64,000 bases of DNA, taken from Rubripirellula amarantea. Its GTDB lineage: Bacteria > Planctomycetota > Planctomycetia > Pirellulales > Pirellulaceae. The position numbers and the translations under genes are program-made. Below the pieces are notes generated by a model. It searched no databases, was not told the DNA's origin, and worked only from the letters and a program-made list of their open reading frames with translations. How positions within the stretch are numbered: the first letter of the stretch is position 1; each line of letters begins with the position of its first letter. Location of the stretch: NCBI RefSeq assembly GCF_007859865.1, contig NZ_SJPI01000001.1:310001-374000 (forward strand), read 5' to 3'. This document shows, piece after piece, positions 11,327-29,979 of this stretch.

Positions 11327-11987
11327 TGTGGCCCCCCTTGGCTTTGTGGCGGCATTCTGTAAGTCAGTCATGCGGGTCGTGCGGGTCATGCCGATTTGAC
11401 ACCCCGCTCTGGGATACTTATCGCCGCATTGAGCGTTCCGGATTAGCCAAAAGCGCCGGAAATGTCAGTGGTATCAGACGAACGGTCTGTAACGACCATG
11501 ACGAATGGTTGCTTTACCCGGCCTAGGACCGACAAATCGGTCGTGGAATCCGTGCTGAAGTTGCACACTGAATTTCTGTTCAACGCGCCGTGAAACCGCG
11601 AGAAGGGAGCTCTAAACCACTTCAGAAAAGGTTTGAAACGCAATTCGCCGCTATCGCGGCGTGAAGGATGACCAAGCCAGACCAAGTGATCTGCTCAGCC
11701 CCCCCGCCGTGTAGAGGTAATCATTAGGCAGTTTTGCCAACGGCCTGCGCCAAAAGTTATAATCAATTCCGAATTGGCACTTTTTGGCAACTTTCGACCG
11801 CCTATACTGCTTCGGACTTTGGGTACCAAAGTACTCTGGTGAGCTTAGGCTGCGTTGCTTCGCACTATCATTTCAAAGACCGTTGCACACCATTTTTTAG
11901 GTGTGCATACATAACTCTTCGAAGGTGCGTACAACAAACCTGGCCTCTACCTCTCATGTATCTCGATTTGAAGGTTTGACGACCGAT
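11327..11987. promoter_or_regulatory. Divergent control region of the EPS locus
   Basis: This 660-base gene-free stretch separates the minus-strand lipoprotein from the plus-strand WecA-type gene and must hold both promoters. Two perfect hairpins are visible. One has CGCCGC and GCGGCG arms around TATC at 11646-11661. The other has TGCACACC and GGTGTGCA arms around an 8-base loop at 11884-11907, 80 bases before the wecA-type start. Neither is followed by a T-run, so they are not simple terminators. A TGGCAC-N5-GGCAA string at 11775 resembles a sigma-54 promoter but the spacing is one base short. Confidence 0.45.
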
Positions 11988-13610
11988 ATGGTTTTGCTCG
12001 TTGCCATCTGCGGTGCTATCGCTCTCGTATCATCTCTGGCTTTAGTTCCTGTCGTCAGAAGCTTCGCTAGATCAGTGGGCATGGTTGATCGTCCCGATGC
12101 GCAGCGAAAACTTCAAAGCAACGCAGTGGCACTCGGTGGAGGAATTGCGGTATACAGCTCGCTTTTAATCGCTTTCGTTGCGGCGCTGCTGATTGATCGC
12201 GCCTATTTTGGACAAATGCTCGGTGTAATATCAGTTCGCTGGTACGTTCTTTTCGGATGCGGTGCCGCTGTCTTGGCGTTAGGTTTGATCGACGACTTGT
12301 GGGGACTGCGAGGACGACAAAAGTTGCTTTTGCAATGCCTGATCGTTGCTGCTTTGGTCGGAAGTGGAACGGTGATTCAACGGTTGAGCTTGTTTGGATT
12401 GACAGTTCCTCTTGGGCCACTAGCGTTTCCCATCACCGTACTTTGGCTGATTGTTGCTGTTAACGCACTGAACCTAATCGACGGGGCTGATGGAATGGCG
12501 ACAACCGCAGGCGCCATCATCTGCATAGGACTGGGCGTTGCCAGTTTTGCGATGGGATCACCACTTGGCGGCATCGTTGGAATATCGTTGGCTGCGGCTC
12601 AAATTGGCTTCCTGGCTTACAATCGACCGCCCGCAACTATCTACCTTGGTGATGCAGGCAGCATGATGATTGGATTATTTGTGGGTGTCCTGGCCATTTG
12701 GGGCAATTTGAAAGAGTCGGCCGTGCTGTCGTCTGCGCCAGTAGCCATTCTTGCAATCCCCTTGTTTGATTCCTCAGCAGCAATCCTACGACGATGGTTG
12801 ACTGGCCGCAGCATTTACGTGACCGATCGAGCTCACCTGCATCACTTGCTACAAGAAAAGTATGGTAGAGGCAAAATGCTTTGGGTGGTCGCTGGCCTTT
12901 GCGGCATCACGGCTACTTTATCAGTGATGTCGATCACGTTTGGTATCCATTGGCTTCCCGCCGTGGGAGTTGCGGTCGCCGGCGCCGTGCTCATTTTAAC
13001 GAGATCCTTTGGTCATACAGAAGCACGTTTGGTCCTCGGCAGCACCTGGCAATTCATCCAGTCTTTTGTATTGCCCCCCCATCGTTGCGATGAAGAAATC
13101 CACCAGCGACGTGTCCCTCTCCAAGGCTCTGGACCCTGGGACACAATCTGGGAACCACTACTTAATTTCGCGAAGGCCCACGGTTTGGTGCGGCTGAAGA
13201 TCAGCCTGAGTCTGCCTTGGCTGCATGAGGGATACCATGCCCATTGGCAAAGCATTCGACTACCAGAGAAGGCACGACAAATGAACATTCGCTTGCCGCT
13301 GTTCACTCATCGAACCAAAGACGACACACAAATTCAGATCGGAACACTTGAAATTGTCGCTGCTGCCGACCATCCCGAAGTCTACCAACGCTTTGCCGAT
13401 CTCGGCGATCAACTCGCGGAACTAACCCCGCAGATTGATGCCGTCGTTCGTAAACTCGAATCCGAACGCCAGCAACTACACTCGCCAATGGGATCACCTA
13501 GTTCCGCAATTCCCAATTGCGAGACGATCACGTCAGGTGATCTTCCCTCAAATGGATCACGGAATTCAAGCGAGGAATATGCTGATGCCTCGCTACCATC
13601 GACGACCTAG
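11988..13610 (+). CDS. WecA/MraY-family undecaprenyl-phosphate sugar-1-phosphate transferase
   Basis: This integral membrane enzyme should transfer a HexNAc-1-phosphate from a UDP-sugar to undecaprenyl phosphate, starting repeat-unit synthesis. Read from the ATG at 11988 it has 540 residues. Expected motifs are all present: GLIDDLWGLRGR (Asp102-Asp103), NALNLIDGADGM (159-170), IYLGDAG (Asp222) and the WecA-group HLHH at 283-286. About ten helices fill residues 1-340. A further 200-residue soluble tail (345-540) follows, much longer than in E. coli WecA, and has no recognised domain. It heads the plus-strand EPS genes. Confidence 0.9.
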   Translation: MVLLVAICGAIALVSSLALVPVVRSFARSVGMVDRPDAQRKLQSNAVALGGGIAVYSSLLIAFVAALLIDRAYFGQMLGVISVRWYVLFGCGAAVLALGLIDDLWGLRGRQKLLLQCLIVAALVGSGTVIQRLSLFGLTVPLGPLAFPITVLWLIVAVNALNLIDGADGMATTAGAIICIGLGVASFAMGSPLGGIVGISLAAAQIGFLAYNRPPATIYLGDAGSMMIGLFVGVLAIWGNLKESAVLSSAPVAILAIPLFDSSAAILRRWLTGRSIYVTDRAHLHHLLQEKYGRGKMLWVVAGLCGITATLSVMSITFGIHWLPAVGVAVAGAVLILTRSFGHTEARLVLGSTWQFIQSFVLPPHRCDEEIHQRRVPLQGSGPWDTIWEPLLNFAKAHGLVRLKISLSLPWLHEGYHAHWQSIRLPEKARQMNIRLPLFTHRTKDDTQIQIGTLEIVAAADHPEVYQRFADLGDQLAELTPQIDAVVRKLESERQQLHSPMGSPSSAIPNCETITSGDLPSNGSRNSSEEYADASLPSTT

Positions 13611-13722
13611 CCAGATTGAAATGGTGTAGTTCGGCAAACGCATAGCGCAAGAATTACATTCGTCTATCAAGCAATACGCCAGTCCATGGCAGTACGTTAT
13701 CCAGGAGTTCGGCGTAGCAACA

Positions 13723-14778
13723 ATGCGAATCCTGATCACCGGCGGCGCTGGATTTATCGGCTCAAACCTGGTTCGCCTAGCACTGCAGCAAGGTCATCAT
13801 GTTCTTAATGTTGACGCTCTTACGTACGCTGGCAACCTGAAGTCGTTGGCTGACGTTTCCGCTAGTCCAGCCTATCGTTTTCTTCACCTGGACATTACCG
13901 ATAGTGCGGGCGTGGCCAACGCGGTGATGCAATTTTCACCTGACGCCGTGATGCACTTAGCGGCCGAAAGTCATGTGGACCGAAGTATCACGGGCCCTGG
14001 ATCGTTCGTCCAAACCAACGTGATCGGAACGTACCATCTACTCCAGGCCAGCTTGGCCTACTGGCGAACACTGACATCAGCGAAAGCTAAGCTGTTTCGA
14101 TTCTTGCATGTATCAACGGACGAAGTGTATGGTTCGCTTGAACAAGAAGGCAGCTTCAACGAAACGACTGCTTACGCCCCCCATTCACCCTACGCCGCCA
14201 GCAAAGCATCGTCCGATCATATAGTTCGAGCGTGGCACGACACGTACGATCTGCCGGTTCTAGTTACCCACAGCAGTAACAACTTTGGCCCCTATCAGTT
14301 TCCCGAGAAGTTGGTCCCCGTCGTGATTTTGAAATGTCTTGATGACCAACCGATTCCGTTGTACGGCAAGGGCGAAAACGTGCGAGACTGGTTGTATGTC
14401 GAAGACCACTGCCAAGCATTGATGGATGTCGTCACCAAAGGTAAACCGGGAGAAACGTACGACATCGGTGGCAGCAACGAATTTTCCAACTTGGACCTGG
14501 CACGAAATCTTTGTCAGATCCTCGATGAATATCGTCCATGTCAGTCGGGTAGTCCACACACCGAAAAAATCACGTTCGTCACAGACCGTCCGGGGCACGA
14601 TTTCCGATACGCCATCGACGCCAGCAAAATCAAACGGGACCTTGGCTGGGAACCTCGCGAAGACTTCCAAGCCGGGATACGAAAGACCGTTCGGTGGTAC
14701 CTCGATAATCGATCATGGTGGCAAGACATCATGTCCGGCAACTATCGACTTGACACGCACAATGCAACCGAAGATTAG
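13723..14778 (+). CDS. rfbB: dTDP-glucose 4,6-dehydratase
   Basis: RmlB/RfbB converts dTDP-glucose to dTDP-4-keto-6-deoxyglucose using bound NAD+. The 351-residue product has GGAGFIGSN (residues 7-15) for NAD binding, STDEVYG (131-137) with the Asp/Glu acid-base pair, and the YxxxK pair Tyr157/Lys161. Length and motifs are canonical. AGGAG lies about 16 bases before the ATG. It precedes the epimerase/reductase-like SDR and rmlA in the same direction, so the three form a split rml set. Confidence 0.96.
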   Translation: MRILITGGAGFIGSNLVRLALQQGHHVLNVDALTYAGNLKSLADVSASPAYRFLHLDITDSAGVANAVMQFSPDAVMHLAAESHVDRSITGPGSFVQTNVIGTYHLLQASLAYWRTLTSAKAKLFRFLHVSTDEVYGSLEQEGSFNETTAYAPHSPYAASKASSDHIVRAWHDTYDLPVLVTHSSNNFGPYQFPEKLVPVVILKCLDDQPIPLYGKGENVRDWLYVEDHCQALMDVVTKGKPGETYDIGGSNEFSNLDLARNLCQILDEYRPCQSGSPHTEKITFVTDRPGHDFRYAIDASKIKRDLGWEPREDFQAGIRKTVRWYLDNRSWWQDIMSGNYRLDTHNATED

Positions 14779-15122
14779 AATGTAGATGAGGGCAAGGCTG
14801 TTAGTGGCGAACATGAACATGATTATGAACATCGACATGAGCACCCAAGCCTCGTTACGTCGATCACTATTACCGATGCGTCTCAGACCTATCTTGTCCG
14901 CACACTCGCCATAGTGCAGATCGTAGAATGCTATGAGTCCGCATGCACGGGACAATCGCTACCTATTGCCCACTTCGCCGCTTGGGCTGTTGCCTATGCT
15001 TACGGATCACTGACGCTCTATTGGGAGCCACTTTCGGACCGCGCTGCCAACTCGCACATGAATCATCTTCTTACTTTTTCGTTTTGCATCGTCGCTTGCC
15101 CCGCTAACCACTGCCTTGTCTT
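14779..15122. other. Intergenic spacer between rfbB and the SDR gene
   Basis: About 340 bases with no gene I can support. It contains an imperfect GAACATGA-type repeat near 14,810-14,835. Short frames here have no recognisable product. The downstream gene appears to start with TTG at 15123, so part of this spacer may be a leader. Confidence 0.4.
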
Positions 15123-16019
15123 TTGATTCTATTGCTTGGTCATACCGGATACATTGGAAGTTCATTCGCGCAAGAGCTTCATCGTCGCGACCTTAGCTTT
15201 CGTGGCATCTCGCGATCCGAAGTTGATTACACCAACCGCGATTCGCTGATCTCGCTGATCCGAGAATCAAAAGCCGACTTTTTGATCAACGCTGCGGGCT
15301 ATTCTGGCAAACCGAACGTCGACGCCTGCGAAATTCATAAGTCGGAATGCTTGCAGGCAAACGCAGTCCTACCAGGAATGGTTCGGCAAGCTTGTGAGCT
15401 AACCGGAATCCCATGGGGACATGTCTCGTCAGGCTGCATCTATACCGGTCGACGTGATGATGGAAACGGGTTTCGAGAGAGCGACGCCCCCAACTTCTGC
15501 TTCCGAACCAATCACTGTAGCTGGTACTCCGGTTGCAAGGCTCTCGGCGAAGAATGCCTTGTCGGTACCGACAACATCTATATTTGGCGGATGCGTATTC
15601 CATTTAACCAATTCGACTCGCCTCGCAATTACCTCTCTAAACTGATTCGATACGACAGGTTGTTATCAGCGGATAATTCGATCTCGCATGTCGATGAATC
15701 AGTTCACGCTTGCGTGGAATCCTGGACCCAACGGATACCAACCGGCATCTACAATGTGACCAATCCAGGCAGCATTACTACCGAGCAAGTCACGGCACTG
15801 ATTCAAACGCATCTGCTGCCAGACAAAAAGTTCAAGTTCTTTGCAAGTGAAACAGAGTTCATGAACTCGGCAGCAACAACACCTCGGTCCAATTGCATCT
15901 TGGATAGTCGCAAACTTCTCTCTACCGGGATAGCCATGTCCGCCGTGGAAGACGCCGTCATTAGCGCGTTGAAACACTGGCGTTCTGCCAACCATAAAAA
16001 ACGACTTTCGATTCGGTAA
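15123..16019 (+). CDS. SDR resembling bifunctional 3,5-epimerase/4-reductase (NRS/ER type)
   Basis: A 298-residue extended SDR. GHTGYIGSSF (residues 6-15) is the dinucleotide site and Tyr135/Lys139 form YxxxK. It is RmlD-like, but several blocks look closer to plant nucleotide-rhamnose synthase/epimerase-reductase as I recall it: INAAGYSGKPNVDACE, SSGCIY, RMRIPFNQFDSPRNYLSKLI and GIYNVTNPG. Those enzymes carry out both the 3,5-epimerisation and the 4-reduction of an NDP-4-keto-6-deoxyglucose. It sits between rfbB and rfbA, and no rmlC gene exists in the window, which fits that role. The start is TTG, directly before the conserved ILLLGHTG; no in-frame ATG precedes it. Alternative: a plain 4-ketoreductase. 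Confidence 0.75.
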   Translation: MILLLGHTGYIGSSFAQELHRRDLSFRGISRSEVDYTNRDSLISLIRESKADFLINAAGYSGKPNVDACEIHKSECLQANAVLPGMVRQACELTGIPWGHVSSGCIYTGRRDDGNGFRESDAPNFCFRTNHCSWYSGCKALGEECLVGTDNIYIWRMRIPFNQFDSPRNYLSKLIRYDRLLSADNSISHVDESVHACVESWTQRIPTGIYNVTNPGSITTEQVTALIQTHLLPDKKFKFFASETEFMNSAATTPRSNCILDSRKLLSTGIAMSAVEDAVISALKHWRSANHKKRLSIR

Positions 16020-16123
16020 GCTCGACCAATTCTTAAGAGCAACCTCAGTCGAAGGCAGTACTAAAACGATGTCACCTAAAACTTCGACGAACTGACAAAG
16101 CGTGATCGCGTGATACTAGATCC

Positions 16124-17041
16124 ATGACCCCAAACCTTTCCACCGAAATCCCACCACCTTGCGACCGCAAAGGCATAATCCTTGCCGGTGGATCGGGTAC
16201 GCGTCTGCACCCAATCACCAGGGCCGTTAGCAAGCAGCTAGTCCCGGTTTATGACAAGCCGATGATCTACTATCCGCTTTCGACTTTGATGTTGGCCGGC
16301 ATACGGGACATCCTGATCATCTCGTCTCCCAACGACATTCCCGCTTTCGAACGACTGCTAGGCGATGGCTCTGAATTAGGAGTGTCGTTCACCTACGCAG
16401 TTCAACCTCATCCTGAAGGCTTAGCCCAAGCATTCATCATTGCCGCTGACTTCATCGGAAACCAACCAGTCTCGCTGATTCTGGGTGATAACATTTTTTA
16501 CGGACAAGGTTTCCGAAAGATCCTCGCCGCAGCAGCGATGAAACCACGCGGCGCAACGATATTTGCTTATCCCGTCACAAACCCGTCCGCTTACGGAGTC
16601 ATTGAGCTGGATCAACAGGGCAGGGCAGTTTCGATCGAAGAGAAACCTCAACATCTCACTTCCACTTTCCCGAAATCTCACTATGCCGTCCCAGGCCTGT
16701 ACTTCTATGACAACGATGTTGTTGAAATCGCCGCGAGCCTAAAGCCGTCATCACGAGGCGAGCTAGAGATTACGGATGTTAACCGTGCGTATTTGACTCG
16801 TGGTGATCTATCCGTTGAGACCTTCAGCCGCGGCTTCGCTTGGCTAGACACTGGTACGAAAGATAGCCTTCTCGACGCCGGAAACTTCGTCGCCGCCGTC
16901 GAAAAACGCCAAGGGCTTAAAATCGCATGCATTGAAGAGATCGCCTACTCGCAAGGCTTCATCAACGATTCACAGTTGCTCAAGCTCGCTGACACCTACG
17001 TCAACGACTATGGCGACTATCTCCGAAACTTGAAGTACTAA
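16124..17041 (+). CDS. rfbA: Glucose-1-phosphate thymidylyltransferase
   Basis: RmlA/RfbA joins glucose-1-phosphate to dTTP to give dTDP-glucose. The 305-residue product has the nucleotide-binding signature [14 protein letters not shown] (residues 17-30), [20 protein letters not shown], the LGDNIFYG metal-site segment and EEKP. Compared with typical 290-residue RmlA it has a 15-residue N-terminal extension. It follows the SDR gene by about 100 bases and supplies substrate for rfbB. Confidence 0.95.
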
Positions 17042-17432
17042 GCGTTTGCCAAACGAACCGTGGTAAAGAGAGCACAGAACAGTCGATCCTTGATGAACAT
17101 GCCAGGACACAGAGAGTGAACGCGTGCCCACATAAAGACACTCCGGCAACCTTGCCAACATTCGGACCTTAGATCATTCTTACGTCATCCTTTGCGACTA
17201 AATGGACTGGACCAAACCTGGGCTCGTTGGCTGACAACTTGCAATTCCAGCATAGCTCTCCCTGCGAAAAGAATAGAAGGCGCACAACGAGTGTCATTTT
17301 CCAAGCGGAATGCCGATCTGCTTTCGACACCCCAGTATTTCCAACGGTGGGTCTGCCCTCCACGCGGACAGAGTCCGCTCTAATCCACGCTTAATAGCAC
17401 GCACTACATATCCACAACTTGGCTCATTTCCC
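17042..17432. promoter_or_regulatory. Leader of the NusG-like gene
   Basis: About 390 gene-free bases lie between rfbA and the NusG-like gene. The notable content is a hairpin element at 17361-17382, described separately, with a near-identical copy upstream of the glycosyltransferase at 20000. An in-frame upstream extension of the NusG-like frame (from 17310) has no family resemblance and crosses the hairpin, so I regard it as untranslated. Confidence 0.45.
17361..17382 (+). promoter_or_regulatory. Conserved hairpin element, copy 1
   Basis: The sequence contains a perfect 6-bp stem, GCGGAC and GTCCGC around an AGA triloop (17364-17378), flanked by CCAC upstream and TCTAA downstream. It ends 54 bases before the GTG start of the NusG-like gene. 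A second copy with the same frame of conserved bases lies before the glycosyltransferase at 20000. It could be an RNA recruitment site for the NusG-like protein or a dispersed genomic repeat; two copies do not settle which. Confidence 0.55.
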
Positions 17433-18020
17433 GTGCCTATTCTTCCACCCGAACCAGATTGCCATCCCGCAGATTTGCTTACGGGCGATGATATTCTTGA
17501 GCGAGGCTGGTGGTTGATGTACACCAAGAGTCGCCAAGAGAAACAGCTCATGCGACGCCTTCGCCAAGCGGATGTCCCTCACTACGCTCCTCAGATCGCG
17601 AGTCGACGTCGTTCGCCTGCTGGTCGCATTCGAGTGACGTACCAACCGTTGTTCGCTAGCTATGTGTTCGTGTGTGGCGATGATGAGGCACGCTATCAAT
17701 CTGTCTGCACCGACTGTGTGCGACAGGCATCTCCGATCGAAGATGTTGAGCAGTTTGTAACTGACCTTCGGCAGATCCAAAGCCTGATCAACATGGACGT
17801 TCCCTTAACGATTGAAGCCAGGATCGAGCCAGGTGAAATGGTCCGTGTCAAAAGCGGAGTATTTGCCGGTTACGAGGGGGTCGTACTAAAACGAACTCAG
17901 GAAACACGGCTGCTCGTCTGTGTTCGGTTCATGGAACAAGGCGTCAGTGTTAAGCTCGACGACTGTCAACTTCTGCCGTTGGGGAAAGTCGACAGTCGAC
18001 CAATCGACGGCCGTGATTGA
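17433..18020 (+). CDS. NusG paralogue (RfaH/UpxY-type antitermination factor)
   Basis: A 195-residue protein from a GTG start. The NGN domain begins at GWWLMYTKSRQEKQ (about residue 25) and includes QPLFASYVFV (71-80). The KOW motif, EPGEMVRVKSGVFAGYEGVV, spans about 132-151. NGN + KOW is the architecture of NusG, but the location inside an EPS cluster and the divergence from housekeeping NusG point to a specialised factor such as RfaH, LoaP or UpxY, which keep RNA polymerase elongating through long polysaccharide operons. A hairpin element lies 54 bases upstream, and another before the glycosyltransferase downstream. Which operon it serves is inference. Confidence 0.88.
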   Translation: MPILPPEPDCHPADLLTGDDILERGWWLMYTKSRQEKQLMRRLRQADVPHYAPQIASRRRSPAGRIRVTYQPLFASYVFVCGDDEARYQSVCTDCVRQASPIEDVEQFVTDLRQIQSLINMDVPLTIEARIEPGEMVRVKSGVFAGYEGVVLKRTQETRLLVCVRFMEQGVSVKLDDCQLLPLGKVDSRPIDGRD

Positions 18021-18228
18021 ATAGAATCAGCATAACGAAACGGCGTCGATCATTGCTTCCAGTTCCCGGTGCCAATCTTTTCCAAGTCGTGACATTCAGC
18101 AAGACCGCCAGCCAATCTCAGACCCGAAGTCGGCCGTGTGACCTCTTTGCAACGCGAGTTTACCAAAATCCGCCTCTCGTCCCCCAAGCGGATAACGAAG
18201 ACCTTCATCTAAATGCGTCGAATCTGCA

Positions 18229-19536
18229 GTGACACTATCACCTAAATCAACAATCGCCGTCATCGGGCTCGGCTATGTAGGCTTACCCCTCGCACTCGCA
18301 TACGCTCGCGATGGCATTACGACCATTGGCTTCGACATTGATCAAGCCAAGACCGACGCTATCAATGCCGGACGTAGCTACATCAAGCACATCGACGCAG
18401 GCGACATTGCAAAGCAGATCAAGTCAGGCCATTTCAAAGCCACCACGGACTTTTCGCGACTAACTCAAGCTGATGCGATCATCCTTTGCGTGCCCACGCC
18501 GTTGGACCATCACTTTGAACCCGATCTGTCGTATGTCATCAGCACCATTGAAGCTGTTATCCCGCACTTGAAAGCCGGGCAAACCATAAGTCTTGAAAGC
18601 ACAACGTATCCCGGCACAACCGAAGAGGAACTCGTCAGCCGCATTGAAGCCGCTGGCTTTAAGGTCGGCCAAGACATCTTTGTTGTCTATTCCCCCGAAC
18701 GTGAAGACCCCGGCAATCCTGAATATGCCGCTACGAACATCCCCAAAGTGGTCGGCGGTCACACTCCTGCGTGTTTAGAAGCGGGCAAATCGCTTTACGG
18801 CAGCGTATTTGACCAAGTGGTTCCCGTTAGCAGCACGCAGGTGGCCGAGTTGACCAAGTTGCTCGAAAACATCTACCGCAGCGTCAACATTGGACTGGTC
18901 AACGAACTGAAGGTTGTCGCCGATGCAATGGGTATCGACATCTGGGAAGTGATCGCAGCCGCTAGCACGAAGCCGTTCGGATTCAAAGCGTTTTATCCCG
19001 GTCCTGGACTTGGGGGGCACTGCATTCCCATCGATCCGTTTTACCTGACGTGGAAAGCACGCGAATTTGGCGTACACACTCGCTTCATCGAGCTGGCGGG
19101 TGAGATCAACCGCAAGATGCCGGCCCATATCGTCCAGCGATGCAGTGAAGCGCTTAACCGAGGCAAGAAGTCGGTCAATGGAAGCAAGGTCCTGCTGATT
19201 GGGCTGGCCTACAAACCGAACGTCGATGATGACCGCGAATCGCCCAGCTACGAATTAATGAACCGGCTTACCGCGATGGGAGCCAACGTTGCCTATCACG
19301 ACCCGTATGTTCCGGTGATTCGACCGTCTCGCGAGCACTCGCATTGGGCAGGTACTCCCAGTGTCAACTGGGATCAGGCTACCATCTCAAGCTATGACCT
19401 CGTGCTGATCTCCACTTGGCACGCATGCCTGAACGTCAACGAATTGGGCAAATGGTCACAATTCATCGTTGACACTCGAAACGCTACGGCAGCTCTCCCC
19501 CCCGAAGTTCGGGCGGCGAAAGTAATCAAAGCTTAG
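18229..19536 (+). CDS. Nucleotide-sugar 6-dehydrogenase, WbpA/TviB-like
   Basis: This NAD-dependent enzyme should oxidise the C6 hydroxyl of a UDP-HexNAc to a uronate. It has 435 residues, with the NAD motif VIGLGYVGLP (11-20), the middle-domain segments ESTTYPGTTEE and YSPEREDPGN, and the catalytic Cys265 in GLGGHCIPIDPF. The LCVPTPL and ERxDPGN features match UDP-GlcNAc dehydrogenases (WbpA) better than UDP-glucose dehydrogenase. GTG start. It would provide an acidic building block for the EPS. UDP-ManNAc dehydrogenase activity is the main alternative. Confidence 0.9.
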   Translation: MTLSPKSTIAVIGLGYVGLPLALAYARDGITTIGFDIDQAKTDAINAGRSYIKHIDAGDIAKQIKSGHFKATTDFSRLTQADAIILCVPTPLDHHFEPDLSYVISTIEAVIPHLKAGQTISLESTTYPGTTEEELVSRIEAAGFKVGQDIFVVYSPEREDPGNPEYAATNIPKVVGGHTPACLEAGKSLYGSVFDQVVPVSSTQVAELTKLLENIYRSVNIGLVNELKVVADAMGIDIWEVIAAASTKPFGFKAFYPGPGLGGHCIPIDPFYLTWKAREFGVHTRFIELAGEINRKMPAHIVQRCSEALNRGKKSVNGSKVLLIGLAYKPNVDDDRESPSYELMNRLTAMGANVAYHDPYVPVIRPSREHSHWAGTPSVNWDQATISSYDLVLISTWHACLNVNELGKWSQFIVDTRNATAALPPEVRAAKVIKA

Positions 19537-19999
19537 CTGCCAAAAGGAGCGTCGGGCGTTCGCAATCACATTCGAACACCGCTTGGATTCCTGAGTGACG
19601 AACGGCGTTGACCGGGCCGGTTAGGAGGGTCGCACCGAGGCGGCCGGCCAAAATCGTGGGCAAAGGAGGGTGGCTGGCGGCTAATCCTTGTCAGCTCTGC
19701 TGGCACCAATCAGTCTGTGTGTGATTCCTGAGCTACCGATCGACGGCAAAACAATTAATCTCATGCCTCAGACTGGTTCATCAGCTCAGCTTTTAAAGCT
19801 CTTTCACCGCGCCATGCAGCCCCCTATCGGGGGAGGCTAGAAGTGGGCTGAGGGCTGGAAGGCTGAGACGAAATCTCAAGTTCTACCTATGAGTGTCCAT
19901 AATGCCATGTGATTTGGCAAAAGGGGTCACCCACGTGGACGGAGTCCGCGCTAACATCTCAGGTCTAATGCGAATCCCGCACTGTTAATCGTCGCCCAA
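19537..19999. promoter_or_regulatory. Gene-free leader before the glycosyltransferase block
   Basis: This 460-base spacer contains a CCCCC/GGGGG hairpin around TATC at 19820-19833, several GGCTGA-like direct repeats near 19,836-19,865, and the second copy of the hairpin element at 19932-19953. No gene is evident. The length and structures suggest a transcribed leader or promoter region for the long downstream block of EPS genes. Confidence 0.45.
19932..19953 (+). promoter_or_regulatory. Conserved hairpin element, copy 2
   Basis: CCACG, GTGGAC and GTCCGC arms around GGA, then GCTAA. The stem (19935-19949) is GUGGAC/GUCCGC with one G-U pair. Aligned to copy 1, 17361-17382, the conserved core reads CCACGyGGACrGAGTCCGC with CTAA following after one variable base. 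It ends 50 bases before the GTG start of the glycosyltransferase, almost the same distance as copy 1. The U-for-C change in the stem keeps pairing, which favours an RNA structure. Confidence 0.55.
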
Positions 20000-21277
20000 G
20001 TGAACACTGAAAGTCAATCGCCACGCCCTAGAATCGTGTTTCTAAACCGATGCTACTGGCCTGATTCCGAAGCGACGGGTCAGTTGTTGATGGATCTATG
20101 CATTGATCTATCGGAACATTTTGATGTCCACGTTGTCTGCGGCATCCCAAATAGCCCGACAACAAACCAGTATGTGAAGAAGGGCATCGAGCAGCGTCAG
20201 GGAGTTACGATCCATCGACTTTCACATATGCATTTCCAAAAGCGTATCCCTGCTGGTCGGCTTATCAATTTGGTTTCCTTCTCAAGAGCGGCATCGCAAT
20301 ACTTGCGAAAGACTCGCCTGAGCTGTGATGTGCTGGTCTGCGAAACGGATCCTTTTTTGCTTCCAGTTGTGGCAGCCAAACATAGCAAGCGAACTGGATG
20401 CAAGTTGATGTGCTACTTGCAGGATATCTATCCGGATGTTGCCGAAGCGATCGGCAAAGTTAGCTCGGGCTGGCTAACTCAGACCATTCGTGCGAAGTTG
20501 CGAAAGGCATATGAACGTGCAGATCGCATCGTGGTCTTGGGTGAATGCATGAAGTCACGCTTGTCTGATTCGCCGTGGTCGATTGCGGCCGAGAAGATGC
20601 ATGTCATTCCAAACTGGTCAGATTGCAGCCTCATTACGCCACTTAGCGTTCATGACAATCCATTTCGCCTCAAGCATGGACTAAGCGACCGAGTTGTTGT
20701 GATGCATAGCGGCAACATGGGACTAACACAGAGGCTTAACGTCCTAATCGAAGCAACTCAGTGCGACACTTGGCCCGAAAGGGCAATGCTATTGTTGGTA
20801 GGTGATGGTGCCGCTAAGTCCTCTTTGCAACAGCAAGCTAACGACATTGGGACAGACCGCGTCAAATTCTTGCCCTACCAGCCACGCGAAAAACTAGCGG
20901 AAAGCTTTTCCGCAGCGGACCTCCATATAGTATCCATGCACCCGAATATCACGGGCTGCCTGTGTCCCAGCAAGTTGTATGGAATCCTAGCTGCGGGTCG
21001 ACCGGTCTTGGCAATCGCGGATTCGCAAACGGACCTCTGCCAAACAGTTCGTCAAGAAGGACTAGGATGGACTTGCGAACCGGGCCAAGCCAACGCGATC
21101 GCAGATGCAGTTTCGCAAGCAACCTTAGACGATGCGAGCCGTGCAGCGGCTGGTGAGAGAGCGAGAAAGGTAGCTTTGGCGAAATTTGATCGCCCCGTAG
21201 TTACGAACCTCTTCAAAAACCTTCTTAATGATCTGCTCGATAAGCCGGTCACTACACTCCAAGACCAGATTGCTTAA
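20000..21277 (+). CDS. Glycosyltransferase family 4, WbuB-like
   Basis: A 425-residue GT-B enzyme. It opens with RIVFLNRCYWPDSEATGQLL, typical of the WbuB group of GT4 enzymes, continues with LQDIYPDVAEAIG and a helix-rich linker, and has the donor-site half with MHSGNMGLTQRL, LPYQPREKLAESFSAADLHIV and CPSKLYGILAAGRPV. It should add a sugar to the growing lipid-linked repeat at the cytoplasmic face of the inner membrane; the donor and acceptor are not predictable. GTG start. The conserved hairpin element lies 50 bases upstream. Confidence 0.88.
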   Translation: MNTESQSPRPRIVFLNRCYWPDSEATGQLLMDLCIDLSEHFDVHVVCGIPNSPTTNQYVKKGIEQRQGVTIHRLSHMHFQKRIPAGRLINLVSFSRAASQYLRKTRLSCDVLVCETDPFLLPVVAAKHSKRTGCKLMCYLQDIYPDVAEAIGKVSSGWLTQTIRAKLRKAYERADRIVVLGECMKSRLSDSPWSIAAEKMHVIPNWSDCSLITPLSVHDNPFRLKHGLSDRVVVMHSGNMGLTQRLNVLIEATQCDTWPERAMLLLVGDGAAKSSLQQQANDIGTDRVKFLPYQPREKLAESFSAADLHIVSMHPNITGCLCPSKLYGILAAGRPVLAIADSQTDLCQTVRQEGLGWTCEPGQANAIADAVSQATLDDASRAAAGERARKVALAKFDRPVVTNLFKNLLNDLLDKPVTTLQDQIA

Positions 21278-21367: not shown

Positions 21368-22351
21368 ATGCCAACTGCGTTAATCACCGGCATCACCGGT
21401 CAAGACGGGTCCTACTTGAGCGAACTACTGCTTGAGAAGGGCTACACGGTGCATGGACTCGTTCGCCGAAGCAGCAATACGGCTCGCGTGAGATTGGATA
21501 GCCTGTTTGCCGACAAGTCTACGTACGAAGAACGATTGTTCTTGCACTATGCTGAACTTGACGATGCGACCACGATTCGTCGCATCCTGATACGCTGCCA
21601 GGCCGACGAAGTGTACCACTTAGCCGGGCAGAGCCATGTGGGAGCCAGCTTTGACATTCCTGAAACGACGTGTCAGTTCACAGCGATGGGTACATTGAAG
21701 TTGCTGGAAATACTGCGAGACCTAGAGAAACGTCCTCGGCTTGTTCATATCAGCAGCAGTGAGGTATTCGGTCGACCTGACCATTCACTTCAGAACGAAC
21801 GCACACCCATGAGACCGGTAACCCCCTACGGAATTGCCAAAGCGTTCGCAACACAGATGGTGTCGCTCTACCGAGAATCGTTTGATTTGTTCGCTTGCAA
21901 CGCAATTTGTTACAATCATGAGTCTCCTCGTCGTGGCGAATCTTTCGTCACCCGAAAGATCACGCGGGCCGCGGCAGCAATCGCGTCAGGGTCGACGGAA
22001 AAATTGAAGCTTGGCTCACTCGATTCTACTCGTGACTGGGGCTATGCTCCTGAGTACGTTGAGGGCATGTGGCGAATGTTGCAACAACCAACGGCCGATG
22101 ACTACATTCTCGCTACCGGTACGAGCCACAGCATTGAAGAGTTTCTTAACGCGGCGTTTGAGTGCGTCGACCTCAATTGGCGTGATCATGTCGTCCAAGA
22201 CGCTCGCTACATGCGTCCATCTGAAGTATCCCAATTGGTTGGCGACGCCCACAAAGCACGCTCCATTCTGGGCTGGACACCGCAAACCCAATTGAATGAA
22301 TTGGCACACCTGATGGTAAACGCTGACTTACTACGGATATCCAGTCTATGA
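21368..22351 (+). CDS. gmd: GDP-mannose 4,6-dehydratase
   Basis: GMD converts GDP-mannose to GDP-4-keto-6-deoxymannose using NADP. The 327-residue product shows GITGQDGSYLSELLL (8-22), the NADP-binding VRRSSNTAR (32-40), HISSSEVFG (127-135) and Tyr154/Lys158 of YxxxK, plus YNHESPRRGESFVTRKI and GSLDSTRDWGYAPEYV. These are diagnostic for GMD. No fcl/wcaG, rmd or per gene accompanies it in the window, so the final sugar (fucose, rhamnose or perosamine) is undecided. It overlaps the next gene by ATGA. Confidence 0.96.
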   Translation: MPTALITGITGQDGSYLSELLLEKGYTVHGLVRRSSNTARVRLDSLFADKSTYEERLFLHYAELDDATTIRRILIRCQADEVYHLAGQSHVGASFDIPETTCQFTAMGTLKLLEILRDLEKRPRLVHISSSEVFGRPDHSLQNERTPMRPVTPYGIAKAFATQMVSLYRESFDLFACNAICYNHESPRRGESFVTRKITRAAAAIASGSTEKLKLGSLDSTRDWGYAPEYVEGMWRMLQQPTADDYILATGTSHSIEEFLNAAFECVDLNWRDHVVQDARYMRPSEVSQLVGDAHKARSILGWTPQTQLNELAHLMVNADLLRISSL

Positions 22352-25092
22352 GCGATCCTGCGGACATGTCGGATAAATCCCAACTAGCTGCAGAATCACC
22401 GCGTGCTTTCGCCAGCAGTAAGTCATCGAATAGGGGGCGTTCGAGTTGGCTGATCACCCGACTTCGAAACGTTCAAACTATCTCAGCGTGGTTCGCAACA
22501 GCATTGCTCGTATTATTGCCCATTGCATTATTGACCGACTTTGGGGGAGTGCTTCACTGGACTCAGTATCTCGCATTTCAAGCGGTACTCCTGATCGTTT
22601 CTGTCACAGCAGTATCGATGCTGGGCGAACAACGTTCTTCAAATCTTCGACAGCATGTTTTATTGATCCCGTTGGTGGGATGGGTGATTTATGGCTACGT
22701 TCAAACCGTATCTTTTCCTGCTTCTTTCGTTGAAGCGTTTAGTCCCGCATCGCACGCTGCGTACACACAGTGGATCGCTCCCCTAATCCCAGCGGCAAGC
22801 CTGCCGAGTCAATTTCCTATTTCAGTAGACCCCCATTCTTCACGCCATTCATTGGCGATCATGATGATGGTGATCGCAGTCGGTTGGTCATCGGCAACAA
22901 TTTTCCATACGCGCCAGCGTACCATCTTCATGCTTTCAGCCGTTTCGCTATCCGGTGCCGCACTAGCGTTGTTTGGAATCGCGAGGATGACATTTCCACA
23001 TGCAACTTTTTTCGACTTTACTGAAACGGATGCTGGCATACCGTTTGGAACGTTCGTCAATCGAAACAATGCAGCGTTGTTCTTGAACCTCTCGCTTGCA
23101 GCGAGCCTGGGCTTGCTTTCATGGCGTCTGATGGCGCTTACCGGGCAAGAGGTTGACGACTCTCAATTTGAGCTTAACGATGTTTTTTCGCTCGTGAGCG
23201 AACGAGAATCCGCGATCGCTATCGGTAGCACAATCTTGTGCTTAGTGGGACTATTGGCATGTGGATCACGGGGCGGCATTGCCGCGACACTGGTGGGATG
23301 CCTATTGGCCATGGGCTGGGTTCGCAAACGCCGAGGCTTCGTTAGCATTCCTGTCGTCGGCACTGTGATTGTCGTTGCGGTTGGGATTCTTGTAGTCCCA
23401 ATGCAACTGAAGCTCAGTAGCATCAAGCGTTTTGAATTCTTCAACAAAGACTCAAGTACGCTTCTGACAGACGGCCGATTCTTGCATTGGCCTGAAGCTT
23501 GGAACTCTGCCTTAGGGTACTTCCCCGCAGGATCCGGACTGGGTTCCTACGCCTATGCACACTTGCCGTTTAGACAGTCGACCGGTTTGTCTGCTTGGTC
23601 TACCCACGCTGACAATCTGTGGCTCGAGCTTTTGGTCGAACAAGGCGTTGTTGGAATTATCCTAGTCATCAGCATGTTCGTTTTATTGATGACTAAACTT
23701 CAGCGGTTGGCCAGTTCGCATGACTCTCTTGACCATGGCGTCCGGGCGATGGGGTGGTACTGCATCGGGGCGTTACTGTTCTCGCAATTCTTCGACTTCG
23801 GCCTAGCGATTCCCGCTAATCTCTTCTTGCTAACTCTCATGCTTGGAACAATCACAGCGAGAGCATCGGAGATCGAAACAACGTCCAAATTCACCTCAAA
23901 AACAGAGGTAGAGTTGCCTTCCGCGGAGAAAGACGCCAGTGCGGTGAAGCAATCTCACATGCGTAGACGTGCGATTTCGGTCGTTGTACGGTCTGCATCT
24001 CTGATTGCCCCGATCGCAATCCTAATCGCATTATCGACATGGTTGCCGAGGATGCGACAAGACGCTATCGCCGAACGATGGAGCAGAGACGCGGAAGTCA
24101 ATCTGAGCACTCTTAGAACCCGCAATAACGTAATAAACGAGTTCAACCAAGAAATGGGCCTCATTGCGAATGCTCTACCTACGCCTGATTTACTTAACGC
24201 GTATAGCGATGTCCAACGACAACTCGCTCGACTCACAGAAGTCGCGAATGCGAAGCCCTCAACGATCCTGGAGGCGGAACTGTACTACGACGCGACGTCA
24301 CCTCTCCAGCGTCGACTACTCAATCGCGACAGTGAAGCACATCCCATAGATCCATCCTTAGCTCCTCTACGTATTGCAGATTCGAAGGAGCAGTACCGAC
24401 AACCACTTGAAACGTGCTTTCAAGTTCTGGCAATGCGTCCGCTAGACCCTAAGCCTCGCTCGGCACTTCTTTACCTGGATTTCGTTGATGGCGACTTAGA
24501 ACGCACCAAAGCGGTTATAGAACAACTGAGTGAATTCCATAAAAGCAATCCTGATGTATTGATTGTTCTAGGTGAGTTCGCAGCCAGCGACGCGAGGCTC
24601 GACGCTGCTGCCGACCTATGGAAAACGGTACTGGAGCTATCACCCGATCTTACCGACGAAGTGATTGAATTGGCGGCAGATTACGGACTTAAAAACTTTG
24701 ACGCTATCCTTCCCTCAAATCCAATTGCCATGCGATTGGCTGCTCGCAGCATCCTTACTCGTCCAGACAAGTTGTATTGGGATGTCTTGCCGCAAACGCT
24801 CGATGGAGTTTCATGCCAAGAGTGCTCAAGTTCGCGAGAAGCATCTAGATGCCATTCTTTATCTGCCGACATTGCCTTCGCATTGGGTGAATTCGACCGT
24901 GCATTCGAAGAGTATGAAAAGTCGATACGACTGAGTGCGGACGATGTGGCATTGCGACTGAGGTATATCCGTCGTCTCGACAGAGTAGGGCGTCGAAACG
25001 ATGCCAGAATTCAAGCCAGAATGGGGCGTCAAGCGATCCCGGGCGACGACCGTTTCAACGCTATTATCAGCGAAATGGCAAACGATGAGTAA
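22348..25092 (+). CDS. O-antigen ligase/polymerase family protein with TPR-like tail
   Basis: A 914-residue membrane protein. Roughly residues 35-570 hold about twelve hydrophobic segments, with a Wzy_C-type region: FNKDSSTLLTDGRFLHWPEAW followed by GSGLGSYAYAHLPFR and the THADNLWLELLVEQG loop characteristic of O-antigen ligase/polymerase proteins. After a final helix near residue 560 a periplasmic part of about 340 residues carries helical TPR-like repeats (AAADLWKTVLELSPDL, FDRAFEEYEKSIRLSADD). It probably polymerises the EPS repeat or transfers it to an acceptor. It overlaps gmd by ATGA, so translation is coupled. The TPR-like tail could bind chain-length or export partners, by inference. 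Confidence 0.85.
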   Translation: MSDPADMSDKSQLAAESPRAFASSKSSNRGRSSWLITRLRNVQTISAWFATALLVLLPIALLTDFGGVLHWTQYLAFQAVLLIVSVTAVSMLGEQRSSNLRQHVLLIPLVGWVIYGYVQTVSFPASFVEAFSPASHAAYTQWIAPLIPAASLPSQFPISVDPHSSRHSLAIMMMVIAVGWSSATIFHTRQRTIFMLSAVSLSGAALALFGIARMTFPHATFFDFTETDAGIPFGTFVNRNNAALFLNLSLAASLGLLSWRLMALTGQEVDDSQFELNDVFSLVSERESAIAIGSTILCLVGLLACGSRGGIAATLVGCLLAMGWVRKRRGFVSIPVVGTVIVVAVGILVVPMQLKLSSIKRFEFFNKDSSTLLTDGRFLHWPEAWNSALGYFPAGSGLGSYAYAHLPFRQSTGLSAWSTHADNLWLELLVEQGVVGIILVISMFVLLMTKLQRLASSHDSLDHGVRAMGWYCIGALLFSQFFDFGLAIPANLFLLTLMLGTITARASEIETTSKFTSKTEVELPSAEKDASAVKQSHMRRRAISVVVRSASLIAPIAILIALSTWLPRMRQDAIAERWSRDAEVNLSTLRTRNNVINEFNQEMGLIANALPTPDLLNAYSDVQRQLARLTEVANAKPSTILEAELYYDATSPLQRRLLNRDSEAHPIDPSLAPLRIADSKEQYRQPLETCFQVLAMRPLDPKPRSALLYLDFVDGDLERTKAVIEQLSEFHKSNPDVLIVLGEFAASDARLDAAADLWKTVLELSPDLTDEVIELAADYGLKNFDAILPSNPIAMRLAARSILTRPDKLYWDVLPQTLDGVSCQECSSSREASRCHSLSADIAFALGEFDRAFEEYEKSIRLSADDVALRLRYIRRLDRVGRRNDARIQARMGRQAIPGDDRFNAIISEMANDE

Positions 25093-25123
25093 TACTGTGC
25101 CAGCGGAAGCGAAAACCTAGACG

Positions 25124-26578
25124 ATGAAAATCTCCACTATTTTTTTGACGCTCTTGTTCGTACTGAGCCTAGCACTTGCGATCAAGAACATCGACATCGC
25201 CATCCCGTTTGTCGCAGGCAGTGCCGCAATCACGCTACCAATCCTTTTGCTCGGCAAGGCACGCGAGTGGAAAGGATATGTCTTGTTCATTTGTGGCTCG
25301 TTCTTCCTTACTTATTTATCAAGGATACCGGTCCTGGCCTTCATCCCTGAAGACTACGGGTTTTCGTCTCGAGAAACGTTAACAGAAACTATGCTCTCCG
25401 ACACGGCGTACTCCATCGTCGCGCCGATGGCGTGCTGTATCTTAGGATTCTTTTTGCCTGTGATGGGTGGTGCCAGGATTCGATCTTTGCCTCCGGCCAC
25501 CGATCAAGCAGCCCGTCAGAGCTTTGTGGTGAAGCAAGCTCACTTGATCGTGCTCTTGTCCTACGCCGTGCTGCTTTCCCGGACCATTCTCGCGGTGTTT
25601 TTTGGAGTGGGTGTTAAGCTGATCGAGAACAAAGCAACTCACCTTCAGTTCTTGACACAGTTGATTCCTGAAATGACTTGCGTTGGCTTTTGCACCTTGA
25701 TAGTTGTCGTTTATCGCAAAAGCGTTCACAGAAACTTGGTCTATCTAGCGGGCGGATTCTTAATTCTTAACGCGTTGCTTACGATCTTGTTCGGATCCAA
25801 AGGTGGCGTATTGATGCTCGTCTTCTCCGTCGCAACGATCTTCCTAACACGGTTTCGCGACATGCCGATTAAGCGAGGTCGATTGGTGATGATCGTTCTC
25901 CCGACGATCCTAATTGTTGGCGCTAGCATCGTGACCGCGTCAACGATGCGGTGGGCGACACGAAAGCAATCTAACTTGAGCACTGGCGTTGCAAGGGGAT
26001 GGGATCGCTTGGAAATCGGTTCCGAACTTAAGGATGGCTTGTTGATGGTGTCTAAACGGGCCAGCGCGTTTGATGCGGTGCGCATTGCCCAAATCCAGAG
26101 CCCCACCGGCGCGATGAACTCCTTCAATCCTTTCAATGTCGCCTTCAATTTGGTCGGACGACTCATTCCCGGCGTCAGTCCACGGTCGATGACCATTTCA
26201 AAAGCCGTAGCTATTTACTACTTCAATAAACCTGAGGGATTTGGCGCATCCCTAGGTCTATTCCCGACGCTCAAATTGATGTTCGGTAGGTATTCCCTGA
26301 TCTCGATATTTCTCTACGGTCTATTAACCACGCTATTGTTCAGTCAAATCTGTCAGATTAGAGATCCCGATATCCGCACAACGATTCAGTACGTGTTCTT
26401 GTTTGCGACCACACGGATCATCATGTCGGGTGCCTTTGACCATCAACTATCGATCTGCATTGTTCAGATCGTTCATATTGTGGGCTTGGCTTATTTGCTT
26501 GCTCGATTCTCTCCTCGCGAGAAAAACTTTTCCAAACCAGAGTCTGCCGTTCACCTCAGTCCTCGGTTAGCTCGATGA
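25124..26578 (+). CDS. Putative Wzy-type polysaccharide polymerase
   Basis: A 484-residue polytopic membrane protein with about eleven hydrophobic segments and a large loop around residues 280-370. The pattern ILFGSKGGVLMLVFSVATIF followed by a long polar loop and then PEGFGASLGLFPTLKLMFGRYS resembles oligosaccharide repeat-unit polymerases (EpsG/Wzy-like, O-antigen polymerase). Wzy sequences are poorly conserved, so this rests mainly on topology and location between a ligase-like gene and the sulfotransferase/flippase genes. It begins 31 bases after the previous gene. Confidence 0.7.
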   Translation: MKISTIFLTLLFVLSLALAIKNIDIAIPFVAGSAAITLPILLLGKAREWKGYVLFICGSFFLTYLSRIPVLAFIPEDYGFSSRETLTETMLSDTAYSIVAPMACCILGFFLPVMGGARIRSLPPATDQAARQSFVVKQAHLIVLLSYAVLLSRTILAVFFGVGVKLIENKATHLQFLTQLIPEMTCVGFCTLIVVVYRKSVHRNLVYLAGGFLILNALLTILFGSKGGVLMLVFSVATIFLTRFRDMPIKRGRLVMIVLPTILIVGASIVTASTMRWATRKQSNLSTGVARGWDRLEIGSELKDGLLMVSKRASAFDAVRIAQIQSPTGAMNSFNPFNVAFNLVGRLIPGVSPRSMTISKAVAIYYFNKPEGFGASLGLFPTLKLMFGRYSLISIFLYGLLTTLLFSQICQIRDPDIRTTIQYVFLFATTRIIMSGAFDHQLSICIVQIVHIVGLAYLLARFSPREKNFSKPESAVHLSPRLAR

Positions 26579-26648
26579 TCATCTTTTATAAACTGTGTCC
26601 AATGATTATTTATTCACAACTTGCTCATGACGGGTACGAGGTTCACGC

Positions 26649-27473
26649 ATGAGCTTATTGCACCTGATGCTGCGTCTCGGGACGCGAAGTAAACAAGCCG
26701 TCGCGATGACGGTTGGCGGCCGAGTTCCCCTGCACATTGTGTCCGAATACCCGAAATCCGGTGGCACGTGGTTTTCGCAAATGCTTGCCGCATACTTGGA
26801 CGTGCCACTGCCAAAGATGACGTACACCCCCTCGTTTCGAGAATGTGTGATTCATAACCATTGGGGATATTCCAGTCGCTACCAACGGCCCATCTATGTG
26901 CTACGTGATGGACGCGACTTGTGTGTTTCGATGTTCTTTCACTTAGTTCGCGTCACGGAAGGTAAGAAGCCTGCACTGTTGAAGTACGTCTATTCACGGA
27001 TCCCCGATTGGGACGAACTCTCACGAGATGCAGAAGGACAGGTTTGCTTTAAGCCCGAATTTGTGGATCGCTGGATACAAAGCCCGATTGGTGTCAAAAG
27101 CACATGGGCACAGCATGTGGATCGTTGGTGGGGTCACGATGACGTTTGTTACGTCAAGTACGAAGATCTACTCGTCTCTCCCGAAGCTGTGCTGGAGCGG
27201 GCAGTTAAGTTTTGCACCGGACAAGACCACATCGACGCAGACAAACTACGGAAAGCGATCGACCAATTCAGCTTCGCCAAACAAACGGGTCGTCAACCAG
27301 GCCAGGAGGACACGTCCTCGTTCATCCGAAAAGGGATCGCTGGAGATTGGAAGAATCACTTTTGCGAGGAAAGCCGCAAGCGGTTCGAAACCTACGCGGG
27401 ACAGACCTTGCGTGACCTAGGTTACGAAACTCAAACCAACTGGTGGCAAGAACTGGCGGAGACAGGCTCCTAA
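26649..27473 (+). CDS. Sulfotransferase, PAPS-dependent (1 of 3)
   Basis: A 274-residue cytosolic sulfotransferase-domain protein. The 5'-phosphosulfate loop is VSEYPKSGGTWFSQML (residues 31-46), the 3'-phosphate segment is YVLRDGRDLCVSMF (84-97), and the C-terminal GxxGxWK signature appears as RKGIAGDWKNHF. All three PAPS-binding elements are therefore intact. In this EPS locus the likely role is O-sulfation of a sugar in the repeat unit. It is followed closely by the flippase gene, whose start lies 14 bases past this stop. Confidence 0.9.
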   Translation: MSLLHLMLRLGTRSKQAVAMTVGGRVPLHIVSEYPKSGGTWFSQMLAAYLDVPLPKMTYTPSFRECVIHNHWGYSSRYQRPIYVLRDGRDLCVSMFFHLVRVTEGKKPALLKYVYSRIPDWDELSRDAEGQVCFKPEFVDRWIQSPIGVKSTWAQHVDRWWGHDDVCYVKYEDLLVSPEAVLERAVKFCTGQDHIDADKLRKAIDQFSFAKQTGRQPGQEDTSSFIRKGIAGDWKNHFCEESRKRFETYAGQTLRDLGYETQTNWWQELAETGS

Positions 27474-27487
27474 AGTCTCGTCTATTG

Positions 27488-28978: not shown

Positions 28979-29979
28979 CCCCCATTCTTGACCGCCCAGT
29001 CTTTGTTGTTGGAGTCCCTAGATCGGGCACGACAGTGATGAGCACGCTGTTGTCGTCTTCACCAACCATTTGCATTGCTCCAGAAATATGGTTCTTCAAC
29101 TACTGGATGCAAAAGTATGATTTCTTGGACCTTTCCGACAGGAATAGCTACACGTTCTTCGTCGACCAATTTCTTGCGTCAAAACGTTTCCGCTACCTGG
29201 AACTGGACGCTCAACCCATTCGAGACCAACTTATCAACAGCGATGTCCAAAGCTTTCAATCTGTGTTCTCGACAGTGCTGACTCACTACGCCGACAAGTT
29301 CGCTAAGTCGCGAGTAGGCGAGAAAACCCCCGGACAATTTCAAAGCATCGAGAAGATCATCGAGTTGTATCCGGATGCTAAGATTGTGTGTATGGTCCGC
29401 GACCCTTACGCGGTTGCGGCATCGACAATCAATTCAGAGTTCGGATCCAATCACGTTTTGGATTCAGCGATACGTTGGAAGCGATACTCCAGAATCCTTA
29501 GCGAACGCTCCCATGAGAATTGCATTTGCATTGTTCGCTATGAAGACTTGGTGTTGCAATTTGAACGCGAGATTCCACGAGTGGCCACGTTCCTTGACAT
29601 AGAACTCGATCCCGCCATTGCGAAGACAAGCCGGGATGGAAATTACGCGGTCGGTGATCGTGGTGAAGGCTGGGCCAAGGATCACTTCCAAAAGGCGTTT
29701 AACGCATTGAACCCGCAGAGCATCGACAAATGGAAAACCCATTTGTCGCTTGAACAAAAGCGAGTCATCCGGTGTCAGATTGCCGACGAGATGTCCCACT
29801 GGGGCTACGCGGCTCATGAAGACGAAGGTCCTCAGTGCGAGTCTACCGCCCGAAAAGCGATGCGGCGCTGGAAGTCCAAAATGAAGGCCCTCTCTCGACC
29901 ATCGCTATTGCTTTCCAAATCACGAACCTACAACCGCCTCACCTATCGCCTGTTCGGTAAAGTCATGGAGCGGAATTGA
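28975..29979 (+). CDS. Sulfotransferase family protein (2 of 3)
   Basis: Read from the ATG at 28975 it is 334 residues; the frame is open 93 codons further upstream but that part overlaps the flippase gene and is not family-like. The PAPS loop is VFVVGVPRSGTTVMSTLL (residues 9-26) and the 3'-phosphate segment VCMVRDPYAVAASTI is present. The overall form is that of Sulfotransfer_3-type or tyrosylprotein-sulfotransferase-like enzymes. Start and stop overlap both neighbours, so it belongs to a tightly coupled operon of flippase and decorating enzymes. The substrate is presumably a repeat-unit sugar. Confidence 0.85.
   Translation: MTPILDRPVFVVGVPRSGTTVMSTLLSSSPTICIAPEIWFFNYWMQKYDFLDLSDRNSYTFFVDQFLASKRFRYLELDAQPIRDQLINSDVQSFQSVFSTVLTHYADKFAKSRVGEKTPGQFQSIEKIIELYPDAKIVCMVRDPYAVAASTINSEFGSNHVLDSAIRWKRYSRILSERSHENCICIVRYEDLVLQFEREIPRVATFLDIELDPAIAKTSRDGNYAVGDRGEGWAKDHFQKAFNALNPQSIDKWKTHLSLEQKRVIRCQIADEMSHWGYAAHEDEGPQCESTARKAMRRWKSKMKALSRPSLLLSKSRTYNRLTYRLFGKVMERN

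Follow-up and report, generated by a model that had tools for sequence, protein, structure and literature searches.

Two copies of a short hairpin-forming element stand before genes of a polysaccharide locus in the planctomycete Rubripirellula amarantea, and one of these genes encodes a NusG-like protein. Is the element the signal by which such a protein is recruited to the operons that it serves? We analyzed a window of 64,000 nucleotides (NZ_SJPI01000001.1, positions 310,001 to 374,000), the whole genome, and genomes of the same family and class. From these sequences, the element is most likely a new ops-type recruitment element of a trans-acting planctomycete NusG paralogue.

Two element copies in a polysaccharide locus

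The relevant features of the window are as follows.

11901..17041, + strand: polysaccharide genes 5' of the NusG-like gene, comprising glycosyltransferase 4, GDP-mannose dehydratase, RmlD-like and nucleotidyltransferase genes (Pfam)
17354..17384, + strand: element copy 1, divergent (31-nt frame; hairpin 17364-17378; model E 9e-4 in own genome)
17433..18020, + strand: specialised NusG paralogue, NGN + KOW, 195 aa, GTG start (Pfam, NCBIfam; start via conserved MPILP)
18229..19536, + strand: UDP-glucose/GDP-mannose dehydrogenase family gene (Pfam PF03721/PF00984/PF03720)
19925..19955, + strand: element copy 2, near consensus (31-nt frame; hairpin 19935-19949; model E 2.4e-8)
20000..21277, + strand: glycosyltransferase, first gene 3' of copy 2 (Pfam PF00534, PF13579)
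21368..34692, + strand: same-strand run with GDP-mannose 4,6-dehydratase, O-antigen ligase/Wzy_C, sulfotransferase and flippase genes (ORFs, Pfam)

The glycosyltransferase 4 gene is presumably WecA-like, going by its name. In the downstream run, Pfam annotation covers the ORFs up to 28978, among which the ORF at 25124-26578 has no Pfam match.

The element occurs twice in the window, as a first-pass annotation of this DNA had reported. Copy 1 is CCACGCGGACAGAGTCCGC (17360-17378) and copy 2 is CCACGTGGACGGAGTCCGC (19931-19949); a single base separates each from the CTAA after it. A search allowing up to three mismatches returned two matches in total, both of them these copies, while 100 shuffles of the window gave a mean of 0.04 matches and none contained two. 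The minimum-energy fold of both copies, as DNA and as RNA, contains the reported 6-bp stem and 3-base loop, and the predicted fold of copy 2 has one extra stem pair. The reported spacings also hold. The stem of copy 1 ends 54 nt before the NusG-like GTG at 17433, a start fixed by the aligned MPILPxEPDC, and copy 2 lies 50 nt before the glycosyltransferase GTG at 20000. The copies had further been called near-identical; both are there, but they are not equally typical, since copy 2 fits the family-wide consensus and copy 1 is more divergent.

Exact copies are rare in the genome and confined to polysaccharide clusters. The first-pass annotation had proposed a genome-wide search, with hundreds of scattered copies as the sign of a dispersed repeat. 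The core GYGGACNGAGTCCGC has three exact matches in 6.95 Mb, all in polysaccharide clusters, which rules out a dispersed repeat in this genome. Two are the copies before the NusG-like gene and the first glycosyltransferase; the third lies 2.7 Mb away in a second polysaccharide cluster, reads GTCACCCAAGTGGACGGAGTCCGCGCTGAC, which is close to copy 2, and stands 93 nt 5' of an ORF in a cluster with Wzy_C, a flippase, glycosyltransferases and Bac_transf. The copy before the NusG paralogue is the most divergent of the three. Seven one-mismatch matches to the core lack the conserved flanks. A sequence model run on this genome gave seven matches at E <= 1, two of them strong.

A specialised NusG paralogue beside the element

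The NusG-like gene encodes a specialised paralogue that has an NGN and a KOW domain and is not the housekeeping NusG, which bears out its initial identification. Its Pfam NusG score is 32 bits (above the cut-off) and its KOW score is 20.4, just under the cut-off of 22.3. The genome encodes exactly two proteins with a NusG domain, and the other one scores 80.7 bits. Among NCBIfam models, UpxY scores best (73.4 bits) and falls short of its cut-off of 100; the RfaH equivalog (61 bits against 144.5) and LoaP (25.8 bits against 125) likewise score below their cut-offs. For the homologue alignments, seven of 30 paralogue loci with a stop in the matched stretch were left out of alignment A4 (L107, L109, L114, L118 and L120-L122); L123 and L126 were also left out of alignment A5, and 35 of the 120 listed homologues were taken in.

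AlphaFold2 predicts the paralogue KOW as a beta-barrel, the open form, with a pLDDT of about 70-80 there, from a 56-row alignment and with no positive control folded.

The element is a sharply bounded signal in relatives

In relatives, the consensus is TGTCACCCAMGTGGACGAAGTCCGCGCYGA, a signal with sharp limits that spans about 31 nt. Conservation among 56 distinct aligned sites is confined to these approximately 31 nt, with almost none outside. We searched the family with the 27-mer CACCCAMGTGGACGRAGTCCGCGCTGA, allowing up to three mismatches and using the reversed pattern as the control. It matches 28 of 149 family genomes, against none for the control, and element-bearing genomes other than G142 (see below) have one to five copies each. 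At class level, 15 of 198 genomes match; ten of these belong to four other families, and the control again matches none.

A 20-mer with two mismatches was discarded as too loose; control matches were about as common as real ones in most genomes. A sequence-only model finds matches in 67 of 149 family genomes at E 0.01, many of which are weak and may be chance, and we relied on weak matches only where they lie near a paralogue. An intrinsic terminator was rejected, as no T run follows the element in the consensus; two related class-level sites (L229, L230) do have a T run after the element. Membership of a known RNA family was also rejected, since the one match of nine loci to Rfam was weak and irrelevant.

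The element heads polysaccharide operons in a fixed orientation

Element sites lie in front of long same-strand gene runs. Of 47 sites, 46 share their strand with the first ORF downstream (random places: 302 of 498), and the gene run that continues on this strand has a mean length of 6.1 genes (random places: 1.1). One of 48 sites falls deep inside an ORF (274 of 500). The sole opposite-strand site (L158) is at the paralogue of G148; the paralogue search gives the same strand there, and we counted it as a miss. The distance from element to start is variable, with a median of 133.5 nt.

The genes that follow are predominantly sugar genes. The 131 ORFs after 45 sites (up to three ORFs each, 120-999 aa; the 69 G142 sites and some of the other family sites were left out) include Epimerase (36), GDP_Man_Dehyd (35), Polysacc_synt_2 (20), Glycos_transf_1 (11), UDP-sugar dehydrogenase (9), ABC2 exporter (9) and NusG (4). 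Among 115 random ORFs, no family exceeds three, and none of the families tallied above is among the 25 commonest of 120. The commonest 25 families are listed for the element, random and distant sets alike, so that single control matches could be hidden. The distant set (43 ORFs) has a similar make-up: GDP_Man_Dehyd 10, Epimerase 10, glycosyltransferases 3 and NusG 2.

The element tracks the paralogue

Genomes with the element nearly always encode the paralogue. This is so for 27 of 28 element genomes in the family (107 of 149 family genomes overall) and for all 15 at class level, against 105 of 198 overall (hypergeometric p 4e-5, kinship uncorrected). Of 29 family genomes whose paralogue has at least 56% identity, 23 contain the 27-mer, versus 5 of 120 others (Fisher p 6e-17, kinship uncorrected). 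Because the genomes are related, these p-values overstate independence. Possession of polysaccharide genes alone does not explain the link, since a Bac_transf sugar transferase is present in 193 of 198 genomes. The 27-mer is absent from six of the 29 family genomes with a close paralogue (at least 56% identity); two of these, G092 and G116, also have no match to the model, and G088 does not appear among the genomes that match it.

The element is also found beside the paralogue gene far more often than expected. It lies directly 5' of it in 12 genomes (G000, G011, G036, G075, G086, G111, G127, G138, G148 and G065, with G257 and G316 outside the family). Among 104 model matches listed outside G142, a list that does not contain window copy 1, 11 are within 1 kb of a paralogue where 0.03 are expected. 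Among 30 listed matches in genomes without a site in the model, G075 being left out as a near relative of G011, three are within 1 kb (G065, G119 and G089; 0.009 expected) and five within 20 kb (0.19 expected). Outside the family, four of 10 elements lie within 400 nt of a paralogue: those of G257 and G316 directly upstream, and those of G278 and G309 about 340 nt downstream. At 21 of 30 paralogue loci, the flanks searched contain no element copy.

Conservation points to sequence rather than the hairpin alone

The stem is well paired, but the pair counts lend no support to selection on pairing as such. Across 55 aligned sites, it is paired in 96.4% of cells, and no pair has changed on both sides; three of the six pairs never vary and carry no information either way on covariation. 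Nine of the 55 lack the second pair. Within GGAC/GTCC, the three inner pairs are invariant and the fourth is G-C in 51 sites and G-T in 4. The copies of R. amarantea fold as RNA at -9.7 to -12.8 kcal/mol. Given the lack of covariation support, recognition may be of non-template DNA or of RNA.

Conservation of the unpaired flanks comes close to that of the stem, and a divergent form, AAAGGAACGAAGTCC, found in three genera (G006, G066 and G109; L220, L225 and L226), has a disrupted stem and folds poorly. Together with the broken pairs, this points to sequence reading. We therefore lean, on conservation patterns, towards the element being read as sequence, like the non-template DNA at ops, rather than as a stable RNA hairpin alone. 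The hairpin as sole determinant was rejected on the pair counts, and a competing upstream pairing does no better. In alignment A3, from which L074 was left out because it contains N, this pairing (columns 3-17) joins GTCAC with GTGGAC, overlaps the main hairpin and is possible in 87% of cells.

Loops are GAA in the family consensus and GGA or AGA in R. amarantea. CsrA-type sites have GGA in a loop, as do two copies in this genome; a CsrA-type site was set aside because the family consensus loop is GAA.

Element copies in integron-like arrays

One genome of the same genus, G142 (apparently Rubripirellula obstinata CECT 8602), has 69 element copies. By number alone, this would resemble a dispersed repeat, but each of the 19 examined is followed, at a constant distance, by an attC-like site. 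They lie just 5' of attC-like sites in apparent integron cassettes, not at polysaccharide operons. All 19 have GGATAAC 44 nt after the core start, about 26 nt past the end of the 27-mer, and 18 of the 19 have GTTATCC at +131, as expected of attC sites. At loci L051-L060, the examined copies lie within a conserved tail of about 300 nt. G142 encodes an integron integrase (428 bits; cut-off 265), and the contig piece that carries it (L191) contains no element and no attC-like pair. Within the array, L051:2748-4890 has an IS91-family transposase gene beside a XerD/integron-integrase-like tyrosine recombinase that scores below all cut-offs.

R. amarantea itself has an integron-like cassette array (L246; G000:C2:1785000-1802762), with small ORFs and, by eye, 13 copies of a 54-nt attC-like repeat. 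The fourth, weak element copy of this genome lies inside it.

One possibility, which we regard as doubtful, is that each G142 cassette carries its own recruitment element, so that the paralogue would be reloaded at every cassette and the polymerase carried through folded attC sites. If so, long cassette arrays would be expressed and an antitermination system would be built into the integron. Alternatively, the element in these arrays may be a captured sequence.

Comparison with known NusG paralogues

The arrangement recalls RfaH and ops of Enterobacteria, in that a sense-oriented leader element precedes long polysaccharide-type operons. The ops sequence is 12 nt, GGCGGTAGNNTG. The element described here is about 31 nt with another sequence, and by eye its consensus does not match ops. 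In RfaH, the autoinhibited KOW is a helical hairpin, whereas a beta-barrel is predicted here, and the element precedes the paralogue's own gene in several genomes, a further difference from RfaH/ops.

UpxY of Bacteroides capsule operons is alike in having the best NCBIfam score and a gene that heads a polysaccharide operon. It is described as preventing premature termination in leaders 5' of upxY (PMC7819879) and as activating its resident operon (PMC7593976). Going by that description, the planctomycete system differs, with one paralogue gene and elements in distant clusters. The structures listed for comparison include none of UpxY, which has no bearing either way. LoaP of Bacillus is described as a NusG paralogue that targets a leader hairpin, dfn (PMC12691694), and the pairing of a NusG paralogue with a leader hairpin, here a candidate target, is similar. 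LoaP reads a UNCG-type RNA hairpin, whereas the loops here are not of this type.

A search of the open-licence literature found no publication that brings planctomycetes together with RfaH and NusG. Recruitment signals of specialised NusG paralogues appear to be rarely known, ops and the LoaP hairpin being those described in the literature seen here.

A candidate recruitment signal and its alternatives

The position, orientation, conservation and gene neighbourhood of the element, and its co-occurrence with the paralogue, are established here. The initial proposal of a recruitment signal for a planctomycete NusG paralogue gains support from the element's rarity, its placement at polysaccharide operons and its proximity to the paralogue, from which we infer binding, loading and antitermination. 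Thus, the element is probably an ops-like recruitment signal for the specialised NusG paralogue whose gene adjoins it. Because this gene has a copy before it and further copies lie in remote clusters, the factor would act in trans on a small regulon. Polymerase in the leader of a polysaccharide operon would expose the element, in single-stranded form on the non-template DNA or as a short hairpin of the nascent RNA. The paralogue would bind the exposed element, load on RNA polymerase in place of NusG, and then keep the enzyme from pausing and from (Rho-dependent) termination along the whole of the long operon. The predicted open beta KOW makes a recruitment signal less obviously needed.

The element could instead be a promoter part or activator site of a polysaccharide regulon of which the paralogue gene is one member. 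Its GGAC-GAA-GTCC inverted repeat, perfect in most of the 55 sites, could be read by a dimeric DNA-binding protein, and the variable distance to the start and the operon-head placement fit such a site. We consider this unlikely, as the conserved flanks lack symmetry, the orientation is the same at 46 of 47 sites, conservation is contiguous with no unconserved spacer, and the commonest arm, GTGGAC/GTCCGC, forms a wobble-paired hairpin and no duplex dyad. Outside the family too, the signal goes with the paralogue, even though polysaccharide genes are present in nearly every genome.

A repeat of mobile or integron origin that spread and came to stand before operons, with no role of its own, would account for the G142 copies before attC-like sites and for the weak copy in the R. 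amarantea array. It is very improbable given the few copies per genome elsewhere in the family, the absence of anything shared beyond about 31 nt in 56 sites, the fixed orientation, the strong gene preference and the presence outside the family. Slighter still is the chance that a leader RNA hairpin acts without the paralogue, whether by attenuation, through an effect on RNA stability or by binding some other protein. Such a hairpin would draw on the stable RNA folds in R. amarantea and the widespread competing upstream pairing; the broken second pair, the lack of covariation, the poorly folding forms of G006, G066 and G109, and nine loci without a notable Rfam match argue against it.

What emerges is a candidate signal of defined extent, 31 nt, which a presumed cognate protein accompanies in five families of one class. 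Regulons could be predicted by a simple sequence search, and co-evolution of factor and site would be directly testable. A predicted open KOW combined with distant targets also bears on the notion that action in trans is confined to autoinhibited paralogues.

Some clusters contain the element twice. At L140, L141, L150 and L162, two same-strand copies lie a few kb apart in one cluster, as in the window; such paired copies might serve reloading.
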